Source of the DNA: an uncultured Eubacteriales bacterium
GTDB lineage: Bacteria; Bacillota; Clostridia; Oscillospirales; Ruminococcaceae
DNA: 41,459 nt
Direction of reading: 5' to 3'
Assembly: GCA_900319075.1 (NCBI GenBank)
Contig: ONMZ01000015.1
Span: 1-41,459 of the forward strand
This document shows positions 1,246-38,104 of the stretch, piece by piece. The notes below the pieces were generated by a model. The model made no database searches. It was not told the origin of the DNA and worked only from the letters and a program-made list of their open reading frames with translations. The translations under genes were made by a program, and so were the position numbers. Every line of letters begins with the position of its first letter. The stretch's first letter is position 1.

Positions 1246-1782
1246 ATGCTGCCGATGATATATATGTCATTGGTCGATGATGACGATCTGCCCCGGTTTG
1301 AGGAGATATATACAAAATACAGACAAATGCTTTATGGCATTGCGTACAGAATTCTGAATAATGAACATGATGCGGAAGAAGCCGTAATTACCACATACGA
1401 AAGGATCGCAGAAAAGTTTAAAGATATTTCACAAATTCCTTGTAATGAATTGCCCTCCTGCATTGTTATTATATGTAGAAACGCTGCAATAAATATATAC
1501 AGGAATAATAAAAAAATAGCTGAGCGTACAACGGAGCTGTGTGAAATAATATCTGCTGAGGATGTGTTTCGCAGCTTTGATGACAAAGATGAACTGATAA
1601 ATGCTCTTAAACAATTACCTGATGATTACAAGGATATCCTGTTTCTTTACGACCTGCAGGGTCTATCGGCAAATAAGATAGCAAAGATGACAGGGATGAA
1701 AGAAAACACAGTTCGTGTCAAGGCGTTCAGAGCAAGAAAAATGATAAAAGATATCCTGAACGGAGGTGTGGTAAATGACTGA
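1246..1782 (+). CDS. ECF-type RNA polymerase sigma factor
   Basis: A 178-residue sigma-70 family protein of the extracytoplasmic-function class that would direct RNA polymerase to alternative promoters. Region 2 is seen in YRQMLYGIAYRILNNEHDAEEA and the following helix; region 4 in LPDDYKDILFLYDLQGLSANKIAKMTG, followed by the recognition helix ENTVRVKAFRARKMI. An upstream ATG at 1228 is in frame, but GGAGGA sits just after it, 9 nt before the ATG at 1246, so 1246 is preferred. The stop overlaps the next start by 8 bp (ATGACTGA), indicating translational coupling with a membrane partner that is probably its anti-sigma factor. The signal and regulon cannot be read from the sequence. Confidence 0.85.
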   Translation: MLPMIYMSLVDDDDLPRFEEIYTKYRQMLYGIAYRILNNEHDAEEAVITTYERIAEKFKDISQIPCNELPSCIVIICRNAAINIYRNNKKIAERTTELCEIISAEDVFRSFDDKDELINALKQLPDDYKDILFLYDLQGLSANKIAKMTGMKENTVRVKAFRARKMIKDILNGGVVND

Positions 1783-26949: not shown

Positions 26950-26978
26950 TTGACAACCTACGACTCGTGATGTATAAT
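26950..26978 (+). promoter_or_regulatory. Consensus sigma-A promoter of the NRPS operon
   Basis: TTGACA (26950-26955), 17-bp spacer, TATAAT (26973-26978). The leader to the ATG at 27067 is about 80 nt. No partner-switch-dependent sigma promoter was recognised, so transcription looks constitutive. Confidence 0.82.
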
Positions 26979-27066: not shown

Positions 27067-30000
27067 ATGGATCAGAGCATTGTTTTAAAAATCGCACAAA
27101 ACATAAAGGAAGATCCTCAGTTCGTAATTCTGGTCGATCAGGGGAAAAATAACTATTTCACATATAAAACCTTTGACGAGTGTGCACGGCGTATTGCCGG
27201 CAAGCTGTCACGCCTGAATGTGGGATATAGAGATTTTGTTACCATAGAGATGCCAAGGAATAAAGAGTATGTGGCAGCGATGTATGCCGTTTGGCTGGTA
27301 GGTGCGGCTTTTGCACCCCTTTCGCCTGCGTATCCGCCGGAGCGTCTTGAGTATATACGCAGCGACTGCGGCGCAAAGCTGGTCATAGACGAAAAGTTCC
27401 TCAGAGATATAGAAAAAGAACAGCCCTATGAAGCCACAAATGCTCCCAAGCCGGAAGATCCGTCTTTGCTTGTCTATACCTCCGGTTCAACAGGTAAGCC
27501 TAAAGGCGTTTTGCACTCTCATGCAAGTATAAGCAGCTCTGTTATCAGATATTGTGAGTATACCCAGGCTCCGGAGGGATTCCGTGCAGCTCTTGGTGCT
27601 CCGTTTACATTTGTCGCCTCGGTACAGGGCGTATTTGTTCCCCTTTACTGCAAGACGGCCTCATACCTCATGCCCTATGAGACGATGCGTGATCCTGTGC
27701 TGCTGGCAGATTATATCTACGACAATAAGATAAACCGTGTGTTTATAAGCCCTAAAATGCTCAGAGTGTTCAAGCAAAAGGGCAATTATCTGAAAACCGT
27801 TGTGACAGGCACCGAGCGTGTGAGCAATATCTATACCGATGAGTTTGAGCTGATCGTTATGTACGGTCAGACCGAATCTGCATCGGGAGCGCTGGCGTTC
27901 AGGATAGATAAAAAGTACGACAATACCCCTATCGGCAAGCCGCTTGGAGGCGTAAAGATCCATATTCTCGATGAAAACGGGAACGAAGCCGAGGAGGGCG
28001 AGCTTTGCCTTGCCGGTTATTTTGCCGACGGATATCTGAACCTTCCCGAGCAGACCGCAAAGACCTTTACCCCCAACCCCTTCAAGCAGCAGGACGGCTT
28101 TGATAAACTGCTGCATACCGGAGATATCGTTAAAATGGACGAACAAGGCAACGTTATCTTCCTTAACCGTAAGGACTGGATGGTGAAGATAAACGGACAG
28201 CGTGTTGAGCCGGGAGAGATAGAGGCGATAATCAAAAATACACATGGTATTGCCGACGCAGCTATAAAGGATTTTAAAAACCAGTACGGACAGGTTTATC
28301 TTGTTGCCTATTATGTTGAAAATGAGCCTGTGGATCCGCAGGATATCAAAAATGCAATAGGAAAGAAACTGCCGCCATATATGATACCGGCATTTTTTGT
28401 AAAACTGGATAAGCTCCCTGTGAACGCCAACGGAAAGCTTGACAGGAAAGCGCTTAATGCGCCGGAGGCAGGAAGCTTCAAAAGCGAATATGCTGCACCT
28501 GAAACGGATATGCAAAAGGCTTTGTGCTCCGCTTTTGAAAAGATCCTTGGCATTGAGAACGTGGGCGCAGATGATGACTTCTTTGCAATGGGCGGAGACT
28601 CTATAAAATGTGCAATGGTCTCGGCTGAATGTGACATCTACAAAATATCCACCGCAGATATCTTTGAGGGAAAAACTCCCCGAATGATAGAAAGACTGCT
28701 TATTAAAAAAGCACAGAAAAAGAAAATCGCCCCCAAAGCACAAAAGGCGAAAATATATCCCCTTACCCCCTCGGAAAGAGGAATGTATTTAGAGCAAAAG
28801 CTCAACGAAAACTCTACCGTCTATAATCTTAATATTGCAGTCATTATCAAAGGCAGCGATATGAATAAAGCGGAAAATGCCCTGAACCAGGTGTTTAAAG
28901 CGCATGAGGCTTTTCATTCCTATTATGGCGAGCAAAACGGTCTGCCTGTGCGTATAGTTTCTGATAAGCTGCCCAATATCGAGAAAAAGACAGCCTCTTG
29001 CCGTGAAGAGGTAATTAAGATCGTGGACGAAAGTGCCGTTGTGCCCTTTGACCTTAATAAAGGCATACCTGTGCGTGCGGCATTGTACCGGATCGACAAC
29101 GGCGGCATTGTCCTGCACCTTGAAATACATCATATCGCCTTTGACGGAGGCTCGGCAAAAACCTTTGTGGCAGAGCTTATCGACGGGCTTAACGGGTTGA
29201 GCGTAAGCCCTGCGGAGATAGACCTTTCGGATATCTATGATCTTGATATGGGCGAAAAGTACGAAAAGGGCATGGCTTATTATAAGAAGATGTTTGAAGA
29301 CTCGGTGCCTGTAAACGAAATGCCTGTTAAGGGCAGCCGTCCGAAGGTACACCCCTTGTCCGACAGACAGATAAACTTTGATTACGATAAGGACCAGATC
29401 AAAGCCATAGATAACATTGCCCGGCTTTACAGTGTGACAGAGTTTGAGCTTTTGTTCTCTGCTGTGGCAATGACCCTTGGCAAGTATACCGTATCTGAGG
29501 ATGTGGTGCTTGGCATACCTACAAATATGCGTCCCGACGGCGGCGATAATATAATCGGAATGTTTGTAAATACCGCCCCTGTAAGAATAAGACCTGTAAG
29601 AAATATGGAGCTTGCAGACTATTTTGCATCGGTCAGCAATTCTGTAAGAAACGCTACCTATGGAGCATATCTGCCTTTTGAAGACGTGGTCGCACAGTTT
29701 GTAAAGCAGCGTGACGAAAGCCGCAATCCTATGTTTGATGTAAGCGTCAACTATATGTGGAATCCTCCTGCATACAGCAAGGACGGTCTGACTGTTGAGC
29801 TTTATTCGCCGCTTCAGAAAATGGGACGTGATATAGGCTTTGTGTTCCGTAAGGGAGAAAACGGTCTGCATTGTATGGTGCAGTACTCATCACAGTTGTT
29901 TGAAGATACAGTGGTAGAAAACTTTACCGCTCAGCTCAGACATACCCTTGAGCTGCTTAAAAACAGCAGTCTGAAAACTGTAAGGGATGTGCTTGACCTT

Positions 30001-33000
30001 CCGCAGGATCAGCGCCAAAAGATCGAAAGCTTTTCCAGCGAGGCAGAAGCTGACGTGCCGGTGAAGCTTTTGCATAAAATGTTTGAAAAGTGTGCTGCTG
30101 AAAACCCGGATAGGATAGCACTTATTGCAAAGGATAGAACGCTGAGCTATAAAGAGCTGAACGAAAGTGCAAATATCGTTGCCAACGAGCTGATAAACAA
30201 AGGCGTTAAGGTCGGCGACAGCATCGTGCTGCTGCTTCCGAGAGAAAGCTGCTATTTCAGCTGTTTGTTCGGCGTTAATAAAGCGGGCGCAGCCTTTATC
30301 CCCTGTGATCCGCAGTACCCGGCTGATCGTATCAACAGCATTATTGAGGACAGCGATGCTGTGTTCATCATAACCACCAAGGATAAGCTTGACCAGTATA
30401 AGGATCATAATGCCATAGACGTTGAGGAAATACTCAAAGGCAGCCTGACAAATGATCCGGGCGTTGAGATGACGGGTGAAGAGCTGAGCTATATGATCTA
30501 CACCTCAGGCTCAACAGGTAAGCCAAAAGGCGTAATGCTGCGCCATAAGGGCATTTGTAACTACCTTATGCCGCACCCTGCAAATATCCATATGCACTGC
30601 TTGAAAAACAATGCTGAAAACTATCTTTCCGTAACCACCGTATCTTTTGATATGTCCTTCAAGGAGCATACCGCTGCCCTCTGCAACGGCAAAACGCTAA
30701 TATTTGCCGCCGAGGACGAGATGAATGATCCAAGAGCCCTTGCAGAGCTTATGGAAAAATACAATGTGGACTGCATCAATGCCACCCCGTCAAGACTTCA
30801 GCAGTATATGCAGTATGAGCCATTCAGAAAAGGACTTTCAAAGTGCAAAATGGTGATGTCCGGCGGCGAGGGCTATCCGATATCGCTGCTCGGCGAGCTT
30901 AAAAAATGCTCAGGCGATATAAAGATCTTCAACACCTACGGGCCTACCGAGATAACCGTATCCTGCAACGCCGCAGACCTTACCGATGCACAGCACATCA
31001 CCGTAGGCAGACCGCTGCTCAACTATAAGGAATATATCGTTGACAAATTCGGCGATATAGCGCCCTACGGCGTTGTGGGTGAGCTTTATGTGGGCGGTAT
31101 CGGCGTGGCAAAGGGCTATAAGAACCTTCCCGAAAGGACAGCCGAGGCTTTTGTTGAGTTTGCAGGGCAAAGAATGTACCGTACAGGTGACCACGCAAAA
31201 TTTGATAAGGACGGCAACGTTATAATACTTGGCAGACTTGACGACCAGGTCAAGCTGAGAGGTCTGCGTATCGAGCTTGGAGAGATACAGGGGCTTATAG
31301 CTGCACAGCCGCATATCAAAGAAGTTGCTGTGGTAATAAAGAAGCTGAGCGGACAGGATAACCTGTGTGCTTATTTCACAGCAGATACAGAGATAGATAT
31401 AACCGCATTGCGTGATGAGCTTAAAAAGAGCCTTACCCACTATATGGTCCCAACTGCCTATCTCCAGCTTAACGAGATGCCTATAACACCAAACGGAAAG
31501 ACAGATATAAGGCGCCTGCCGGAGCCTGTTTCCCTTTCCGGTACAGAGTATTGCGAACCTGCCAACGATACGGAAAAATTCTTCTGTGAGGCATTTGCAG
31601 CTGCTCTTAATCTTGAGCGTGTGGGAGCGCTTGACGATTTCTTTGAAATAGGCGGAACCTCCCTTATCGTAACCTCTGTGGTGCTGGCAGCTACGGAAAA
31701 GGGCTTTGAGATAACCTACGGAGATGTGTTCAAGCGAACTACTCCAAGGGCTCTTGCAGAGCTGTTCAAGGACGGAGAGGTAAACGATACACAACAGTTG
31801 TTTGATTTTGACAACTACGATTATACCAAGATAAATAAGCTTTTACAGGGCAATACTGTGGAAGCGTTCCGAAACGGCGAGCTGCGTGACGTGGGCAACG
31901 TTCTCATTACCGGTGCAACCGGTTATATGGGCGCCCACCTGCTTGCAGAGTACCTTCGCAGCGAAAAAGGTACCGCATACTGTATGATAAGAAAAGGCAG
32001 ATTCGATACCGCAAAGGAACGTCTTGAAAATATGATGTTCTACTACTTTGGCTCTGACCTTGAGGACGAGGTAAACAACCGTGTACAGGTCTTTGACGGA
32101 GACGTTGTGAACTATGCAAGCTTTGAGCGGTTTGAAAAAATGCCTGTGGATACCGTTTTCAACTGTGCGGCAAACGTAAAGCATTTTTCCAGCGGTACGG
32201 ACATTGAGGATATCAACGTGGGCGGAGCTGTGAACTGTATCAAGCTTTGTAAAAAAATTGGGGCAAGACTTATTCATTTCTCCACCGTTTCCGTTTCCGG
32301 AACCACAGACGATGTTTCAAAGCTCGGCAGACAGGACCTTGACGAACAGTCCCTGTACTTCGGACAGACCCTTGACAATAAGTATACCTCATCCAAGCTT
32401 ATGGGTGAGCGTATGGTTCTTGAGGCTGTCGCAGAAGGCCTTGATGCAAAGGTAATAAGGGTGGGAACTCTTGCCGCAAGAGAATCTGACGGTGAGTTCC
32501 AGATAAACTTCCTTACCAATAACTTCATGGGCAGACTTCGTTCTTATGCACTGCTTGGCTGTTTCCCATATGGTATGATAGAAAATCAGGTGTGCATGGG
32601 ACCTATCGACCGTTCCTGCGAGGCATTTTTGAAACTTGCCCGTTCGCCACGTGAGTGCTGCGTCTTTAATGCAGTCAATAACCATACTTTGCCCCTTGGC
32701 GATATAATTAGACAGATGAACGAAAACGGTATGGAAGTTAAGTTCGTTGAATATGATGAGTTTGCAAAGGCGCTTAATGAAGCTCAGCAGGACCCTGAAA
32801 AGGCAGCCATCCTTTCCAGTATGACAGCATATATGAATACTGCCCACGGAAAGAAAGTAACTGCCCTGCCATGCAAAGCACATTACACCACTCAGATCCT
32901 TGCACGAATGGGCTTTTTCTGGAATCAGAGCAATGAAAAATACGTAAACGACTTTATAAATGTCCTGCGTGGATTCAGATTTTTCAATAAGAATAATCTC

Positions 33001-33009
33001 AAACGATAA
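27067..33009 (+). CDS. Nonribosomal peptide synthetase, A-T-C-A-T-R
   Basis: 1980 residues. A1: core A3 YTSGSTGKPKGV (about 136), but the A4 region reads FTFVASVQG with Val183 where amino-acid-activating domains have Asp235 (GrsA numbering). T1: GGDS with Ser512. C: intact HHIAFDG (688-694). A2: A3 at 1144-1155 and FDMSFKE with Asp1195, Met1196, Lys1199; Lys at this pocket position recalls Glu-activating domains. T2: GGTS with Ser1532. R: SDR-type thioester reductase with GATGYMG (1616-1622) and YxxxK (Y1773, K1777), which releases the chain as aldehyde or alcohol. No thioesterase, epimerase or MbtH is present, and no phosphopantetheinyl transferase is in the window. Predicted product: an N-acyl (A1) amino-aldehyde, perhaps glutamate-like. 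First gene of a five-gene operon. Confidence 0.92.
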   Translation: MDQSIVLKIAQNIKEDPQFVILVDQGKNNYFTYKTFDECARRIAGKLSRLNVGYRDFVTIEMPRNKEYVAAMYAVWLVGAAFAPLSPAYPPERLEYIRSDCGAKLVIDEKFLRDIEKEQPYEATNAPKPEDPSLLVYTSGSTGKPKGVLHSHASISSSVIRYCEYTQAPEGFRAALGAPFTFVASVQGVFVPLYCKTASYLMPYETMRDPVLLADYIYDNKINRVFISPKMLRVFKQKGNYLKTVVTGTERVSNIYTDEFELIVMYGQTESASGALAFRIDKKYDNTPIGKPLGGVKIHILDENGNEAEEGELCLAGYFADGYLNLPEQTAKTFTPNPFKQQDGFDKLLHTGDIVKMDEQGNVIFLNRKDWMVKINGQRVEPGEIEAIIKNTHGIADAAIKDFKNQYGQVYLVAYYVENEPVDPQDIKNAIGKKLPPYMIPAFFVKLDKLPVNANGKLDRKALNAPEAGSFKSEYAAPETDMQKALCSAFEKILGIENVGADDDFFAMGGDSIKCAMVSAECDIYKISTADIFEGKTPRMIERLLIKKAQKKKIAPKAQKAKIYPLTPSERGMYLEQKLNENSTVYNLNIAVIIKGSDMNKAENALNQVFKAHEAFHSYYGEQNGLPVRIVSDKLPNIEKKTASCREEVIKIVDESAVVPFDLNKGIPVRAALYRIDNGGIVLHLEIHHIAFDGGSAKTFVAELIDGLNGLSVSPAEIDLSDIYDLDMGEKYEKGMAYYKKMFEDSVPVNEMPVKGSRPKVHPLSDRQINFDYDKDQIKAIDNIARLYSVTEFELLFSAVAMTLGKYTVSEDVVLGIPTNMRPDGGDNIIGMFVNTAPVRIRPVRNMELADYFASVSNSVRNATYGAYLPFEDVVAQFVKQRDESRNPMFDVSVNYMWNPPAYSKDGLTVELYSPLQKMGRDIGFVFRKGENGLHCMVQYSSQLFEDTVVENFTAQLRHTLELLKNSSLKTVRDVLDLPQDQRQKIESFSSEAEADVPVKLLHKMFEKCAAENPDRIALIAKDRTLSYKELNESANIVANELINKGVKVGDSIVLLLPRESCYFSCLFGVNKAGAAFIPCDPQYPADRINSIIEDSDAVFIITTKDKLDQYKDHNAIDVEEILKGSLTNDPGVEMTGEELSYMIYTSGSTGKPKGVMLRHKGICNYLMPHPANIHMHCLKNNAENYLSVTTVSFDMSFKEHTAALCNGKTLIFAAEDEMNDPRALAELMEKYNVDCINATPSRLQQYMQYEPFRKGLSKCKMVMSGGEGYPISLLGELKKCSGDIKIFNTYGPTEITVSCNAADLTDAQHITVGRPLLNYKEYIVDKFGDIAPYGVVGELYVGGIGVAKGYKNLPERTAEAFVEFAGQRMYRTGDHAKFDKDGNVIILGRLDDQVKLRGLRIELGEIQGLIAAQPHIKEVAVVIKKLSGQDNLCAYFTADTEIDITALRDELKKSLTHYMVPTAYLQLNEMPITPNGKTDIRRLPEPVSLSGTEYCEPANDTEKFFCEAFAAALNLERVGALDDFFEIGGTSLIVTSVVLAATEKGFEITYGDVFKRTTPRALAELFKDGEVNDTQQLFDFDNYDYTKINKLLQGNTVEAFRNGELRDVGNVLITGATGYMGAHLLAEYLRSEKGTAYCMIRKGRFDTAKERLENMMFYYFGSDLEDEVNNRVQVFDGDVVNYASFERFEKMPVDTVFNCAANVKHFSSGTDIEDINVGGAVNCIKLCKKIGARLIHFSTVSVSGTTDDVSKLGRQDLDEQSLYFGQTLDNKYTSSKLMGERMVLEAVAEGLDAKVIRVGTLAARESDGEFQINFLTNNFMGRLRSYALLGCFPYGMIENQVCMGPIDRSCEAFLKLARSPRECCVFNAVNNHTLPLGDIIRQMNENGMEVKFVEYDEFAKALNEAQQDPEKAAILSSMTAYMNTAHGKKVTALPCKAHYTTQILARMGFFWNQSNEKYVNDFINVLRGFRFFNKNNLKR

Positions 33010-33020
33010 GGAGGCTGCAA

Positions 33021-34754
33021 ATGGAACGCAGCGGAATACTTTTAAACCGTAAATACCGTGCACTTCTTGTGTCAACGCTTGCAATGACCGCCTCCATCTA
33101 CCTGTCAGGCATATTCGACAGCATAATGGTGGGACGGATCCTTGGCACAGCAGAGGTTTATGCCATAAACCTTACCTCACTTATAGTATTTTTAAGAGCC
33201 ATACCTGTGTCGATCTCTACTTTTGGTGGAAATACCCTTAGCGTTATCTATAAAAGCAAGCGTGACGGTAAGTCATCTGACATAGTTTTTACCCTGTCTT
33301 TTCTGTTCGGGTTTATAATATCTACTCTGATGGCGGTGGCTGGCATAATATTTGCCGGTCCCACCGCAAATCTTCTTTCCCAGAACAAAGCAGAGGTAAG
33401 CTCTCTGGTACTGCAATACCTGTATCCGCTGTGGGCAGTCACACCTCTGGTAGCCCTTGTGAACCAGACGGCTGCCTATGCCCGTACCGACGGTATGCGT
33501 AAGCTTGCCGTAAGTCTGCCCATCGTGTCAAATGTAGTTAACCTCATATGCGACTATGTGTATATGAAGATATTTGGCTGGGGGCTTGCAGGCGCAGGCT
33601 GGGCAACGGTTACAGGTTATGCGGTCGGCACAATTATGACCTTGATGTATTTCAGATCCAAAAAAAGAACGGTGCACTTTGTAAAGTCTGCTCTCAGACA
33701 GCTGAAATATCTTGGCGGCGTAATAAGCATTGGACTGCCGTCTGCACTTATATATGTGTGCAATTTCCTGCGGCTTTTCTTTGTCAACGCCATTATCCTT
33801 TCCTCAACAGGAGTTGTCGGCGGAAAGATAGCCTCGGTGTCCTTCTCGCTCAACAGTATCGCATTCATATTTGTGGAGGGCGCATCAATGACCCTCCTGC
33901 CCATACTGGGAGCGCTGTATGGTGAAAAGGACACAAAGGGTCAGCGCATCACCCTGCGCTACGGAATGATAGTTACCGTAGTCCTGTCCCTTATCGTTAC
34001 TGTGGTATCGGTTCTGTTCCCGCAACAGCTTGCATCGCTCTACGGCTTTACCGACCCGGAGGCGATAAAGGTGTTCAACACCACCTTCAGACTGCTGTCT
34101 ATAAACGTGCCCATACTTGCAGTCATCTATGTAATGCGCTCTTTCTTTCAGGCAACAAAGCAGAAAGGACTTGCAAATCTCCTTGTTGTCCTTGACGGAT
34201 TTTTAACTATCGTACCCCTTATGTACTGGTTCTCAAAGTACAATATCTATTGGCTGTGGGCAGCGTTCCCGATCTCTAAGGTCCTTACTCTGGCAATAGT
34301 AGCGGCAGTAATGCTTGCAACCAAAAAAGCCCGCAACAAAAAAGGCATACTTGGACTTGATGAACCCCAGGGCATCGCTTATGACTTTTCCATAAAAAAT
34401 GAGATCGACCAGGCTATCAAAGCCTCTGAGGAAGCAATGTCCTTTTGCGAAAAAAACAACGTGCCGGAGAATGTGGCAAACCTTGTGGGCGTTACTGTTG
34501 AGGAGCTTTGCCACAATATCGCCACATACGCAAGCTCCGCAGCTGCCGATACAGTTGATGTGTGCGTGCGTATCCTTGAAAATGAGGTCAATATCCGGCT
34601 CCGTGACAGCGGCAGTGAATTTGACCCTACGGATTATATAGATAACAGCGGAAGACAGATAACAGGCCTTGAGCTCGTTCGCAAACTAAGCTCCGGGATC
34701 AACTATAACCGAATACTTGGCTTTAATGTGACAAACGTGACTGTTTCATATTAA
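33021..34754 (+). CDS. MATE transporter fused to an RsbW-like ATPase domain
   Basis: 577 residues. Residues 1 to about 445 are a MATE exporter with twelve helices (STLAMTASIYLSGIFDSIMVGRILG at the start). Residues about 450-577 are a GHKL ATPase of the RsbW/SpoIIAB anti-sigma kinase type: N box with E495-L-C-H-N499, G1 box DSGSEFDP, and TGLELVRKLSSGINYNR near the end. The ATP-binding residues appear intact. It starts 11 bp after the NRPS stop behind AAGGAGG, so it is probably the product exporter. The kinase-like tail could phosphorylate or bind the STAS protein encoded at 37759 and tie export to a partner switch; that is inference. The MATE at 9000 has no such domain. Confidence 0.85.
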   Translation: MERSGILLNRKYRALLVSTLAMTASIYLSGIFDSIMVGRILGTAEVYAINLTSLIVFLRAIPVSISTFGGNTLSVIYKSKRDGKSSDIVFTLSFLFGFIISTLMAVAGIIFAGPTANLLSQNKAEVSSLVLQYLYPLWAVTPLVALVNQTAAYARTDGMRKLAVSLPIVSNVVNLICDYVYMKIFGWGLAGAGWATVTGYAVGTIMTLMYFRSKKRTVHFVKSALRQLKYLGGVISIGLPSALIYVCNFLRLFFVNAIILSSTGVVGGKIASVSFSLNSIAFIFVEGASMTLLPILGALYGEKDTKGQRITLRYGMIVTVVLSLIVTVVSVLFPQQLASLYGFTDPEAIKVFNTTFRLLSINVPILAVIYVMRSFFQATKQKGLANLLVVLDGFLTIVPLMYWFSKYNIYWLWAAFPISKVLTLAIVAAVMLATKKARNKKGILGLDEPQGIAYDFSIKNEIDQAIKASEEAMSFCEKNNVPENVANLVGVTVEELCHNIATYASSAAADTVDVCVRILENEVNIRLRDSGSEFDPTDYIDNSGRQITGLELVRKLSSGINYNRILGFNVTNVTVSY

Positions 34755-34765
34755 CGGAGATAACA

Positions 34766-36556
34766 ATGAAAGGATCAAATAATAAATTATCGGATGAGTC
34801 AATAAGATTGCTGGACAATAACGAGCACCGGATGAACCTTATTGTAACGCTAATACTTGCCATCGTAGATGCGTTAATGATTATACAGGTTTTTTTAAGC
34901 CCCCATAAAGCATATATAATAGTTTTCTGCGGTGTGCCGGCTTTATTGCTGTCATTGGTGATAGTGTTGAATCTGGTGTTCAGCAGGCATCTGCATCACT
35001 GGGTGAAAAATGTGAATATGATAGTGATGCTGATATCGTTCATGTTGGTGGGAGAGATAAACCATAGTGAGTTTTTCATGCTTTTTATCCTGCCGTCGTT
35101 TCTCAGCAGTTTCTATTACTACCCTAAGTATACCGTGATCAGTTCCGCAGCATCTTTGGTGACCCTGTGGGTGGTGATGTTCAACAGAGTGGACTTCAGC
35201 CATGGCACACAGATGGAAGATTTTGATCTGCAAAACCTGTTCTCAATTTTGTCCAAAGCCTTTGACTTTTCCACGGTCAGTGAGCTGGCAAGTGTGGGTC
35301 GGATCTGTATGTTCGTCTTTGCAGCAGCGATGATGAGCATAGCGATTTATATGTCTTTCAGCGGAAGGATCTTTTACTATCGCCAGGCAATGCTTTTAAA
35401 CGATAACGCCGCCTCAAAGGCAGAGCTCATAATGGCAAGGGCTATCCAGGACGGTGCCATATCACATGATTTTCCCGACAACGAGTTTTATTCCGTCTAC
35501 GGAGATATGGTCACAGCATCTAAAGTCGGAGGCGACTTTTACGATCAGTTTATGGTGGACGATACTCATCTTGCCCTGGTCGTAGGAGATGTCTCCGGTC
35601 ATGGAATGGCTGCGGCAATGTTTATGATGCTGTCCATGACCCTTATCAAAGTCAATGTACAAAGCGGATATTCGTGCGATAAGGCAATATCCAGAACTAA
35701 TAAATACCTTGTTTCAGCAAACCCCCAGAAGTTTTTTGTGACCTGTTGGCTGGGAATAATAGACCTGACAACAGGAGAGCTTTGCTATACCAATGCAGGA
35801 CATAACTATCCTGTTTTGCTGCGGAAGGGACAAAGGGCTGAGTTCCTTAAATCAAAGACTGACTTTGTCCTTGGCAGAAGACGGCTTGCACCTTATAGTG
35901 AAAAGCATATTAAGCTGAATGAGGGAGACAGACTTGTACTTTATACCGATGGCGTTACCGAGGCAGTATCACGTCAGGATGAATTTTTCGGCGACGAAAG
36001 ACTGCTGGAAGCATTAAGTGCCTGCGGCTCTGAAAGCGCACAGCGGCTTGTTTACCTGATATGGAAAGCGGTAGATACGTTCAGCAAAGACCGGGTGCCA
36101 AGCGATGATATTACCATCGAAGCATTTGATCTTAAAAAGCTAATGTCCCAACCGCAGTATGAGACCAAAAACTTTTTTCTCACCATGGAGAGCTTTGACA
36201 GCGTCCAGGAATATATCTCCGGGCGGTGTAAAGAATACGGCTGCAGCACGGACGTTGTGTATAATATACTGGCTGCGTCCTCCGAAATACTTGCCAATAT
36301 TGAATCCTATGCCTACGAAGACGGGGGAGAGATAGAGATAATGATCATTTCCCGTGGCCGCAGAGTCTGCATAGTGTTCAAGGACAGCGGGGAACCTTTC
36401 GACCCGCTGCTGGCAAAAAAACCTGATGTTACCCTGCCGCTTGAGCAAAGGAGCCCCGGCGGATTGGGTATCCATATCGTTTGCAAGCTTATGGACAGCG
36501 TAAGCTACCGTTATGAAAACGGGCAGAACGTGCTGACCATAGAAAAAGACTTTTAG
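34766..36556 (+). CDS. Membrane SpoIIE/RsbU-type phosphatase fused to RsbW-like ATPase domain
   Basis: 596 residues. N-terminal membrane module of about six helices (27-150 and 190-212). PP2C/SpoIIE domain about 225-455 with metal-binding residues GGDFYD (Asp257), GDVSGHG (Asp275), LYTDGVTEA and PSDDITI. C-terminal GHKL domain about 465-596 with N box E507-I-L-A-N511, KDSGEPFDP and PGGLGIHIV. Thus a phosphatase for phospho-STAS and a kinase-like domain sit in one membrane protein. In known partner switches RsbU/SpoIIE dephosphorylates the anti-anti-sigma protein and RsbW rephosphorylates it. Operon gap from the MATE fusion is 11 bp. The sensed signal may be perceived by the membrane part; unknown. 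Confidence 0.88.
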   Translation: MKGSNNKLSDESIRLLDNNEHRMNLIVTLILAIVDALMIIQVFLSPHKAYIIVFCGVPALLLSLVIVLNLVFSRHLHHWVKNVNMIVMLISFMLVGEINHSEFFMLFILPSFLSSFYYYPKYTVISSAASLVTLWVVMFNRVDFSHGTQMEDFDLQNLFSILSKAFDFSTVSELASVGRICMFVFAAAMMSIAIYMSFSGRIFYYRQAMLLNDNAASKAELIMARAIQDGAISHDFPDNEFYSVYGDMVTASKVGGDFYDQFMVDDTHLALVVGDVSGHGMAAAMFMMLSMTLIKVNVQSGYSCDKAISRTNKYLVSANPQKFFVTCWLGIIDLTTGELCYTNAGHNYPVLLRKGQRAEFLKSKTDFVLGRRRLAPYSEKHIKLNEGDRLVLYTDGVTEAVSRQDEFFGDERLLEALSACGSESAQRLVYLIWKAVDTFSKDRVPSDDITIEAFDLKKLMSQPQYETKNFFLTMESFDSVQEYISGRCKEYGCSTDVVYNILAASSEILANIESYAYEDGGEIEIMIISRGRRVCIVFKDSGEPFDPLLAKKPDVTLPLEQRSPGGLGIHIVCKLMDSVSYRYENGQNVLTIEKDF

Positions 36557-36567
36557 GAGGAATTTAA

Positions 36568-37743
36568 ATGAGCAAGCCTACCCGCATCATTATCGCAGGT
36601 GACCTTTTCCCCATGCCATGTAATTACAGCTTGTTTGAAAAGGGCGATATACAAACGCTCTTTGGCAGCAGGGTTTGTGAAATGTTTGCCTCGGCGGATA
36701 TAAGGATATGCAACCTTGAGGGCAGCTTTACCGACAGAGAAACACCTGTTGAAAAAGCAGGTCCCAATATCAAAGCTCCCACAGCGGCAGTAAAGGCAGT
36801 GAAGGAACTGGGAATAAACTATGCCACCCTTGGCAATACACATTCCATGGATTTCGGCGCACAAGGCTATGCCGATACCTGTAAAACTTTAAGTGAAGCA
36901 GGCATTAAGTATTTCGGCTGGGGCGACGACATTGACCATATTATTGCCCACCGCACCTTGACCCATGAGGGCAGAAGAATAAGTCTGTATAACGTTACCG
37001 AGCAGTTTGAAAATGCCCCCGGAACGGATTGCCCGGGTGTGAATCTTTATGACGAGTACCGTGTGTGCGCCCGGCTGAAGGAGCTTAAACAGCAAAGTGA
37101 TGTGCTGATAGTTTTCTATCACGGCGGTATCGAGGGCTCACATTATAACAGCGAAATAATGCGTCGCCGATTTCACCGCATGGCAGATAACGGTGCCGAC
37201 GTTGTCATCTCTCAGCATACCCATGCCATAGGCGAGCAGGAAACCTATAATGGTTCATATCTGCTCTATGGACAGGGAAATTTCTGCTTCCATTTCAGAG
37301 ACAATGTGACACCCCAGCTTGCCGAAGGGCTGGTGCTGGAGCTTGAAATATCCGAAAGCGGCGTTACGCCCAAGCCCCACCGTGTGCTGCGTACCGAGTT
37401 TGGCTGTGTGTATGATGATAAGCAGCAGCTGGAGGAGTTTTACCGCCGCAGCAGTGTCCATGACAAGCTTTTAAGCGGGGATTCCGAAGCGTTGAAAGAG
37501 TTTGATGAGGCTTTCGGAAAGGATTGTAAAAACTGGGCAGGTACGCTGCTGTGGGCTATGCGAGGGCAGAACCCGGAGGATGACCAAAAGCGAAAAGAGC
37601 TTTCTGCAAAGGATATGAGCGAGTATCTGGCATCACAGTATTCAAGACAGCAGCTGCTTGTGATCCAGATGTTCCTGCGAAATGAGGAGTTTAACGAACT
37701 TGGCAGAAGAATAATCAGCGATATGCTGAATGAAACAAAATAA
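36568..37743 (+). CDS. CapA-like metallophosphatase-fold protein
   Basis: 391 residues of the CapA/PgsA family (poly-gamma-glutamate synthesis related, calcineurin-like fold). Seen motifs: IIIAGDLFPM, ADIRICNLEGSFTD, NYATLGNTHSMDFG (usual GNNHxxD is GNTHSMD here), VFYHGGIEG, ADVVISQHTHAIGEQETYNGSYLLYGQGNF. All likely metal ligands (Asp, Glu/Asn, His) are present. It lacks a signal peptide or membrane anchor, unlike most capsule-linked CapA proteins, so it should act in the cytosol. A comparable protein beside an NRPS might hydrolyse or form an amide/isopeptide bond of the product, or be an accessory phosphatase; neither can be chosen. AGGAGG 6-7 nt upstream; 11-bp gap after the phosphatase gene. 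Confidence 0.82.
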   Translation: MSKPTRIIIAGDLFPMPCNYSLFEKGDIQTLFGSRVCEMFASADIRICNLEGSFTDRETPVEKAGPNIKAPTAAVKAVKELGINYATLGNTHSMDFGAQGYADTCKTLSEAGIKYFGWGDDIDHIIAHRTLTHEGRRISLYNVTEQFENAPGTDCPGVNLYDEYRVCARLKELKQQSDVLIVFYHGGIEGSHYNSEIMRRRFHRMADNGADVVISQHTHAIGEQETYNGSYLLYGQGNFCFHFRDNVTPQLAEGLVLELEISESGVTPKPHRVLRTEFGCVYDDKQQLEEFYRRSSVHDKLLSGDSEALKEFDEAFGKDCKNWAGTLLWAMRGQNPEDDQKRKELSAKDMSEYLASQYSRQQLLVIQMFLRNEEFNELGRRIISDMLNETK

Positions 37744-37758
37744 AGAGGAGGATCAATA

Positions 37759-38058
37759 ATGCAGATCAATATTTATGAGGAAAACGGAGCAAGCGTTATC
37801 GCTCCAAACGGGAAGATAGACCATGTCACCGTGGGGGAGTTTGATGAAAAGATCAATGAACTGGGAAATCAAAACGATAAGTTGGTTCTTGACATGAAAG
37901 ATGTAGAGTATGTAAGCTCGGCTGCGCTCAGGGCAATACTCAACATAAACGACCTGATGGCTGATAAGGGCGGCAGCTTTACCCTTAAAAACGTCAATAA
38001 AAAAGTCATGGAGATATTTAATATCACAGGCTTTGCTGATTATCTGAACATTGTCTGA
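37759..38058 (+). CDS. STAS-domain anti-anti-sigma factor
   Basis: 99 residues, one STAS domain like RsbV/SpoIIAA. The phosphorylation site lies in DVEYVSSAALRAIL (Ser53/Ser54), fully conserved in form. In the known mechanism the unphosphorylated STAS protein binds an RsbW-like kinase and frees its partner; phosphorylation by RsbW stops this and SpoIIE-type phosphatase restores it. Here the kinase-like domains are both fused to membrane proteins of the same operon and no sigma factor gene is present, so the STAS protein may instead gate the transporter or another enzyme. AGAGGAGG lies 7 nt before the ATG. Followed by a terminator. Confidence 0.9.
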   Translation: MQINIYEENGASVIAPNGKIDHVTVGEFDEKINELGNQNDKLVLDMKDVEYVSSAALRAILNINDLMADKGGSFTLKNVNKKVMEIFNITGFADYLNIV

Positions 38059-38065
38059 AACAAAG

Positions 38066-38104
38066 AAAAGCGGAGAGCTTCTGTGAGAAGTCCTCCGCTT
38101 TTTT
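38066..38104. terminator. Terminator closing the NRPS operon
   Basis: AAAAGCGGAG (38066-38075) pairs with CTCCGCTTTT (38093-38102), with an inner CTTCT/AGAAG stem and a T run. The A-rich left side lets it also serve the leftward flavodoxin gene ending at 38134. Confidence 0.88.

Follow-up and report, generated by a model that had tools for sequence, protein, structure and literature searches.

We analysed a window of 41,459 nucleotides, positions 1 to 41,459 of contig ONMZ01000015.1 (assembly GCA_900319075.1) from an uncultured clostridial bacterium of the Ruminococcaceae, and focused on an operon in which a MATE exporter is fused to a domain of the HATPase family. Five plus-strand genes form this operon (27067-38058), encoding in order a nonribosomal peptide synthetase (NRPS), the MATE-HATPase fusion, a SpoIIE-HATPase protein, a CapA-like protein and a STAS protein, with intergenic gaps of 11, 11, 11 and 15 bases (Table 1). 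The MATE-HATPase fusion belongs to a real, recurrent family, and its tail, mostly degenerate in its kinase motifs, is most likely a receiver that reads STAS rather than a STAS kinase; it would have kept a STAS-binding fold while largely losing the kinase machinery. Partner switching is chiefly familiar as a means of controlling transcription; the operon likely represents a variant with a transporter as output, for which we found no characterised precedent in the open-licence literature. The parts from which an initial annotation had assembled a switch, namely a STAS protein, a SpoIIE phosphatase and two RsbW-like domains, one fused to the exporter and one to the phosphatase, were all recovered by Pfam within a single NRPS operon.

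Recurrence of the fusion and of its switch partners

At family level, across 297 genomes, at least 39 matches in 26 genomes extended to the end of the HATPase domain (query end of 567 or more; one of the 39 starts at a contig end). The class and phylum surveys (391 and 398 genomes) used a domain profile, and 37 fusions were counted among the 40 regions examined, the remaining three (L103, L115 and L116) holding no whole fusion. Up to four candidates per genome were scored in the family survey and up to ten in the other two, so that per-genome counts are lower bounds. A scan of named genomes covered 80 loci, in which L140-L179, without the truncated L173, gave 39 whole relatives and were checked for partners, and L180-L219 were distant, partial or unfused. 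Many of the named relatives are rumen assemblies named Ruminococcus or Lachnospiraceae, and one is Pseudobutyrivibrio sp. ACV-2; relatives from Selenomonas ruminantium are 33-35% identical to the window fusion, and the MATE fusion of Ruminococcus sp. FC2018 is 90% identical to it. L140 and L157 share their contigs with L043 and L044 and were removed, which reduced the 115 fusions to 113 non-duplicate ones.

In 81/113 cases at least one gene for STAS, SpoIIE or another HATPase lay within 8 kb of the fusion, and 57/113 fusions had both STAS and SpoIIE at this distance. These 57 loci hold an intact kinase domain in 47 cases and another HATPase in three, and none is found within 8 kb in the other seven. 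Partners are mostly encoded on the strand of the fusion (STAS 80/84, SpoIIE 78/82, HATPase 68/71). Near the 39 named-genome relatives, NRPS adenylation (A) domains were found in 30 cases and all three switch parts in 28. Partner counts were made without the filter that discards small genes under longer antisense open reading frames (ORFs).

The 20 best unfused MATE regions by E-value, from the same family of genomes, served as controls (one region with stop codons was skipped). No STAS, SpoIIE or HATPase match occurred anywhere in the 20 control loci, and 19 of them could be counted, at 0/19 with a partner within 8 kb; the MATE start of the twentieth, L132, fell outside the scanned place, and L132 also lacks a partner. 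The difference between 81/113 and 0/19 (Fisher p = 1e-9) led us to reject chance co-location. This comparison leans against the fusions, because the controls more often have full flanks, with 8 kb on both sides in 14/19 controls and 55/115 fusions. The initial annotation had staked its proposal on the conservation of the fusions, and conserved they are.

The genome of the window (G000) carries further copies. On contig C15 (locus L042 1593-16699) lies a second NRPS operon with two MATE-HATPase fusions, SpoIIE, STAS and a triosephosphate-isomerase-like protein, and with no separate HATPase domain in the 16.7 kb examined. Another MATE-HATPase (G000:C40:57041-58774; L010 11042-12790) follows spoIIAA-spoIIAB-sigF after about 2.7 kb and has no SpoIIE beside it. 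Its kind lacks the G1 Gly, a loss seen in 29 fusions, ten of them without a partner within 8 kb. A STAS-RsbW pair (L011, G000:C37, 4933-5689) stands next to apparent FHA-ABC transporter genes, with neither phosphatase nor sigma factor in the 10 kb examined; this pair may serve lone fusions in trans.

Motif states of the switch domains

The transporter part of the fusion (approximately residues 1-440) matches MATE structures in the Protein Data Bank (PDB), and the AlphaFold model of the whole protein has a mean predicted local distance difference test (pLDDT) score of 84.5. Modelled alone from 37 sequences, the tail (approximately residues 452-577) reached a mean pLDDT of 91.2, and the best PDB match of this model was the SpoIIAB:SpoIIAA complex 1th8 (E 4e-8, template modelling score 0.75 by query); the model also matches SpoIIAB with SigF (1l0o). 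When a sequence profile of the tail was compared with the PDB, all five matches up to E 0.01 were RsbW or SpoIIAB. The MATE-borne domain is of the RsbW/SpoIIAB kind, with a GHKL fold.

In the window copy of this domain TGLE replaces GLG, GxG being absent, and a short ATP lid together with a lost second glycine box is common to the window and 39/40 members of its clade. N-box E..N, DxG and GxG were all present in 2/115 MATE-borne domains, as against 34/37 SpoIIE-borne and 29/31 standalone domains of a joint alignment. GxG was accepted here in any register; a column-based count, which is register-sensitive, gave 0/115 MATE-borne domains. The looser register-free count is the one used; a stricter pattern undercounted the SpoIIE-borne domains. 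In 31/115 MATE-borne domains the N-box has lost its Asn or G1 its Asp. Given this split between domain classes, the role of receiver most likely falls to the MATE tail and that of kinase to the SpoIIE-borne or standalone domain. Across 37 aligned fusions, E494 and N569 are present in all and E495, R528, F534, P536 and Y562 in at least 90%.

The SpoIIE protein combines several hydrophobic segments, with peaks within residues 25-198, a phosphatase domain (265-453) and a HATPase domain (480-593) with intact kinase motifs. GDVSGHG, TDGV and DDIT, which we take to be the catalytic motifs of PP2C/SpoIIE phosphatases, are present in the window, and the motifs are complete in 74/81 SpoIIE domains near fusions. 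The STAS protein has a predicted phospho-serine, Ser54 in YVSSAALR (codon 37918-37920), placed by alignment with SpoIIAA; this column is Ser in 90/90 STAS (88 distinct sequences, a set that includes two sporulation SpoIIAA entries and the C37 copy). Sensor N-termini vary, with HAMP in L148, dCache and HAMP in L177 (Selenomonas) and hydrophobic segments in the first 200 residues in the window, a variety of predicted inputs that fits an extracytoplasmic or membrane signal. In L142 (11742-12194) and L145 (2401-2856), a kinase ORF some 150 amino acids long adjoins the fusion where relatives carry the phosphatase-kinase, and the start of the L142 ORF resembles a remnant of a phosphatase domain.

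Transporter output weighed against other targets

What we observe here are the genes and their domains, the state of the motifs, the recurrence of the arrangement and the sequences of promoter and terminator; from them we infer all binding and phosphorylation, the effect on transport, its sign and the signal. We lean, somewhat beyond even, towards a sigma-independent partner switch with the transporter as output, in which the phosphorylation state of STAS would set its docking on the MATE tail and so gate export of the NRPS product. The membrane SpoIIE protein would sense an outside or membrane signal and dephosphorylate STAS, and its own RsbW-type kinase domain would re-phosphorylate STAS. 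The resulting state of STAS would decide its binding to the RsbW-like tail of the MATE protein, and docking there would open or close export.

Several observations weigh against this scheme. No partner lies within 8 kb of 32/113 fusions, including the C40-type copy of this genome; some loci are cut by contig ends. The general-base Glu is kept in 113/115 MATE-borne domains, and because the window tail keeps E, N, D and G, some degree of ATP binding by it is possible. Seven of the 57 loci with both STAS and SpoIIE, including the C15 cluster of this genome, have no other HATPase within 8 kb; the MATE domain might therefore be the kinase there, or the kinase might act in trans. Together with the nearly intact tails of L044 and L050 (all motifs) and of L073 and L110 (full lid, no G1 Gly), these seven loci speak against an absolute receiver role. 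Moreover, sigma genes were sought near the fusions with a single SigF sequence, which other sigma types could escape, and a weak sigma match (E 3e-3) was found in L054.

The same seven loci and four tails, along with the fold, the N-box Glu/Asn and the DxG kept in the window, are what would favour the MATE-borne domain as the STAS kinase, as the initial annotation had supposed, and would make the exporter an active signalling enzyme. We consider this improbable. In the window, the lid is shortened and the second glycine box lost, as in nearly all of its clade, and the SpoIIE-fused domain is intact; across the fusions, the loss of Asn or Asp in 31/115 and the intact kinase domain nearby in 47/57 loci argue in the same direction. 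The fusions without neighbours, and the second STAS-RsbW pair in the genome, could also mean that STAS, SpoIIE and kinase act on another target in trans and that the MATE domain is an evolutionary remnant. Same-strand clustering and the conservation of E494, N569, E495, R528, F534, P536 and Y562 make this very remote.

A further candidate target is the synthetase. At least 31 full-length matches, from 28/189 genomes of another family in the phylum, join STAS to an NRPS condensation (C) domain; both domains were recognised by Pfam for L118 (6752-8344), and the remaining ones by similarity to L118, which the translations of L117 (2855-4447) and L119 (11541-13145) resemble. In the 20 further loci (L220-L239), the neighbour of the STAS-C gene is a MATE gene in 16, overlapping it by 4 bases in 13, and an NRPS A domain in four, with SpoIIE on the other side. 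The STAS-C genes of L118 and L119 also overlap a MATE gene by 4 bases. A HATPase match was seen in six MATE genes of the 20 loci, which are short and mostly leave the MATE tail outside. In the clade of the window, a STAS gene lies 25-69 bases upstream of an NRPS with A, C and thioester reductase (R) matches in 13/27 loci, eight of the 13 having a further STAS downstream.

Because the STAS-C fusions mostly stand beside a MATE gene, the switch may also dock a synthetase on the exporter, and STAS may tie enzyme to pump. STAS would then be a phospho-switched tether that brings the synthetase to the exporter when unphosphorylated, with the NRPS as much a target as the pump, which is compatible with gating of export. 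The fusions, their MATE neighbours in 16/20 loci, the A domain and SpoIIE neighbours in four and the upstream STAS genes of the 13 relatives all point this way. However, the window STAS is free, no STAS-C fusion was seen in its clade, a fusion elsewhere is no proof of contact here, the MATE tail is truncated in most of the 20 short loci (a HATPase match being seen in six), and loci with GH3 or other enzymes instead of an NRPS exist; we hold a tether to be unlikely.

Such enzymes include GH3-type synthetases near the fusions of L061, L069 and L104, an ATP-grasp protein in L104, a formyltransferase-like protein in L071 and a lone condensation domain in L179. Because the loci carry NRPS, GH3, ATP-grasp or other enzymes, the module appears to travel with small-molecule enzymes. 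A broader scheme, in which unphosphorylated STAS, alone or C-fused, would clamp onto the MATE pseudokinase tail and couple synthesis to export on a SpoIIE signal, the module being passed between genes for NRPS, GH3 and other small-molecule enzymes, is doubtful as a whole.

In L046, L061, L069 and L104 the GH3-type acyl-amido synthetase gene lies between MATE-HATPase and SpoIIE (by Pfam, and by look in L046). A STAS-APH-HATPase triple fusion adjoins MATE-HATPase in L081 (9952-11541; three domains by Pfam), and similar genes, with STAS and HATPase matches, were seen in L080 (7139-8701) and L088 (12702-14309).

The last alternative takes the fusion for a membrane-bound anti-sigma factor, with the transporter as sensor and transcription as output. 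RsbW/SpoIIAB domains do bind sigma factors, and the tail model matches the SpoIIAB-SigF complex. Among the genes and Pfam domains of the operon, none encodes a sigma factor, in agreement with the initial annotation, and the promoter is of SigA type. Thirteen Sigma70 region-2 matches over the cut-off were found in the genome, one of them within the window (1306-1515), about 25 kb from the operon. Two sigma genes of SigB/F/G type were found: the best score was obtained with SigG for the one on C46 and with SigF for the one on C40, and SigB scored far lower for both. The SigF gene comes with SpoIIAA/SpoIIAB genes of its own in an operon. A SigF-like gene lies within 8 kb of 1/115 fusions and 1/19 controls, that is, without enrichment. 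A similar gene set is present in the archaeon Methanobrevibacter ruminantium, and to our knowledge archaea lack bacterial sigma factors, which makes output through a sigma factor implausible in that organism. The absence of a cognate sigma factor is no proof, because the assembly is 86.65% complete and another sigma factor could be missing. We set a SigB-type output low, and regard an anti-sigma role of the fusion as highly improbable.

Operon features, known relatives and significance

Table 1. Features of the NRPS operon and its flanks; the Pfam scores given for the MATE, SpoIIE and STAS genes are all above the Pfam cut-offs.
Feature	Coordinates	Strand	Evidence or state
Promoter match, TTGACA-17-TATAAT	26950..26978	+	12/12 to sigma-70 consensus; 88 bases 5' of NRPS start
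NRPS, 1980 amino acids, A-PCP-C-A-PCP-R (PCP, peptidyl carrier protein)	27067..33009	+	Pfam/NCBIfam
MATE exporter with RsbW/SpoIIAB-fold domain	33021..34754	+	Pfam MatE 76.0 bits, HATPase_c_2 38.7 bits
MATE-borne HATPase domain	34374..34751	+	E495..N499 (N-box) and D529-x-G531 present; shortened lid; TGLE at the second glycine box
Membrane SpoIIE phosphatase with HATPase domain	34766..36556	+	Pfam SpoIIE 164.8 bits, HATPase_c_2 65.9 bits
SpoIIE-borne RsbW-type kinase domain	36203..36544	+	N-box, DSG and GLG intact
CapA/PGA_cap-type protein	36568..37743	+	Pfam 154.5 bits
STAS protein, 99 amino acids	37759..38058	+	Pfam STAS 66.1 bits
Hairpin with T-run, intrinsic-terminator-like	38064..38104	+	-23.8 kcal/mol, z -6.2

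The full promoter score was reached in 0/2000 base shuffles of the 260 bases upstream of the NRPS; over the whole region, 24 promoter-like matches against 18.0 +/- 4.1 by chance represent little excess. The relative L140 has a match at the identical position and with the identical score, and among 27 loci scores of 11 or 12 were obtained in nine and no match of 9 or more in eight. The hairpin was spotted by eye and is missing from the list of a simple terminator scan. PADLOC gave no match for the four operon proteins submitted, and a known anti-phage defence system was rejected.

The C domain of the NRPS has an intact HHIAFDG motif. The position that binds the amino group through an Asp, presumably 235 in GrsA numbering, is Val in the first A domain (window 27067-28450) and Asp in the second; across 34 first A domains from the clade, a count that takes in free-standing domains, it is V in 24, K in four, I in three and D in three. 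The first unit of the chain may be something other than an amino acid. The order A-PCP-C-A-PCP-R is common to the window NRPS and the aureusimine synthetase AusA, and the best NCBIfam match is the aureusimine model (1003.7 bits, residues 9-1967). This score falls below the model's cut-off of 2500 bits and, unlike AusA, the window NRPS lacks the Asp in its first A domain.

The initial annotation had counted five genes correctly and left the fourth, the CapA-like one, undescribed. This gene adjoins the fusion mainly in the nearest relatives of the window (L043/L140, L141, L143, L144, L145 and L155), and more distant copies lie elsewhere in L063 and L075.

The operon shares its phosphatase, its STAS protein with a conserved Ser and its RsbW-type kinase with the SigB and SigF switches (RsbU/RsbV/RsbW and SpoIIE/SpoIIAA/SpoIIAB), the nearest solved relatives being RsbW/RsbV (6m36) and SpoIIAB/SpoIIAA (1th8). 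In contrast to these switches, it has no sigma factor, and its exporter carries a second RsbW-like domain, which is degenerate. The best PDB sequence match of the window phosphatase is Rv1364c (3ke6), part of sigma-F regulation in mycobacteria, which likewise joins phosphatase and RsbW domains in one protein but has no exporter. SiaABCD of Pseudomonas aeruginosa is also a switch without sigma output, the target of which is not a transporter but the diguanylate cyclase SiaD, activated on binding by SiaC (PMC8457831). The SiaB-SiaC structure 6kko is a weak fold match to the MATE tail model (E 0.02). We know of no HATPase domain in the SiaABCD target.

The claim of the initial annotation that no system of this layout has been characterised holds in the open-licence literature, with the qualification that the gene set itself has been known since Leahy et al. 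(2010). In M. ruminantium M1, mru0066-0071 combine an NRPS and MatE with an anti-sigma antagonist and two serine phosphatases; the NRPS clusters were read as sensing the environment and controlling NRPS expression (Leahy et al., 2010; PMC2812497). In the retrieved passages of that paper the end of the NRPS is a thioesterase in the text and a thioester reductase in the legend of Figure S8, and a MATE-HATPase fusion is not mentioned for this archaeal gene set. Among the matches listed from open-licence PMC literature, titles and abstract openings name no MATE-RsbW fusion, and no biochemistry on this system was found; SpoIIE and STAS do not occur in the retrieved text of PMC8241843.

If gating of the exporter by STAS is true, export of a natural product in bacteria would be gated by protein phosphorylation. 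If the phosphatase is the sensor, release of the product would require a signal, a possible reason why clusters are silent. MATE-HATPase fusions would also serve as a genome-mining mark for small-molecule operons in rumen and gut Clostridia, in Selenomonas and possibly in methanogens.

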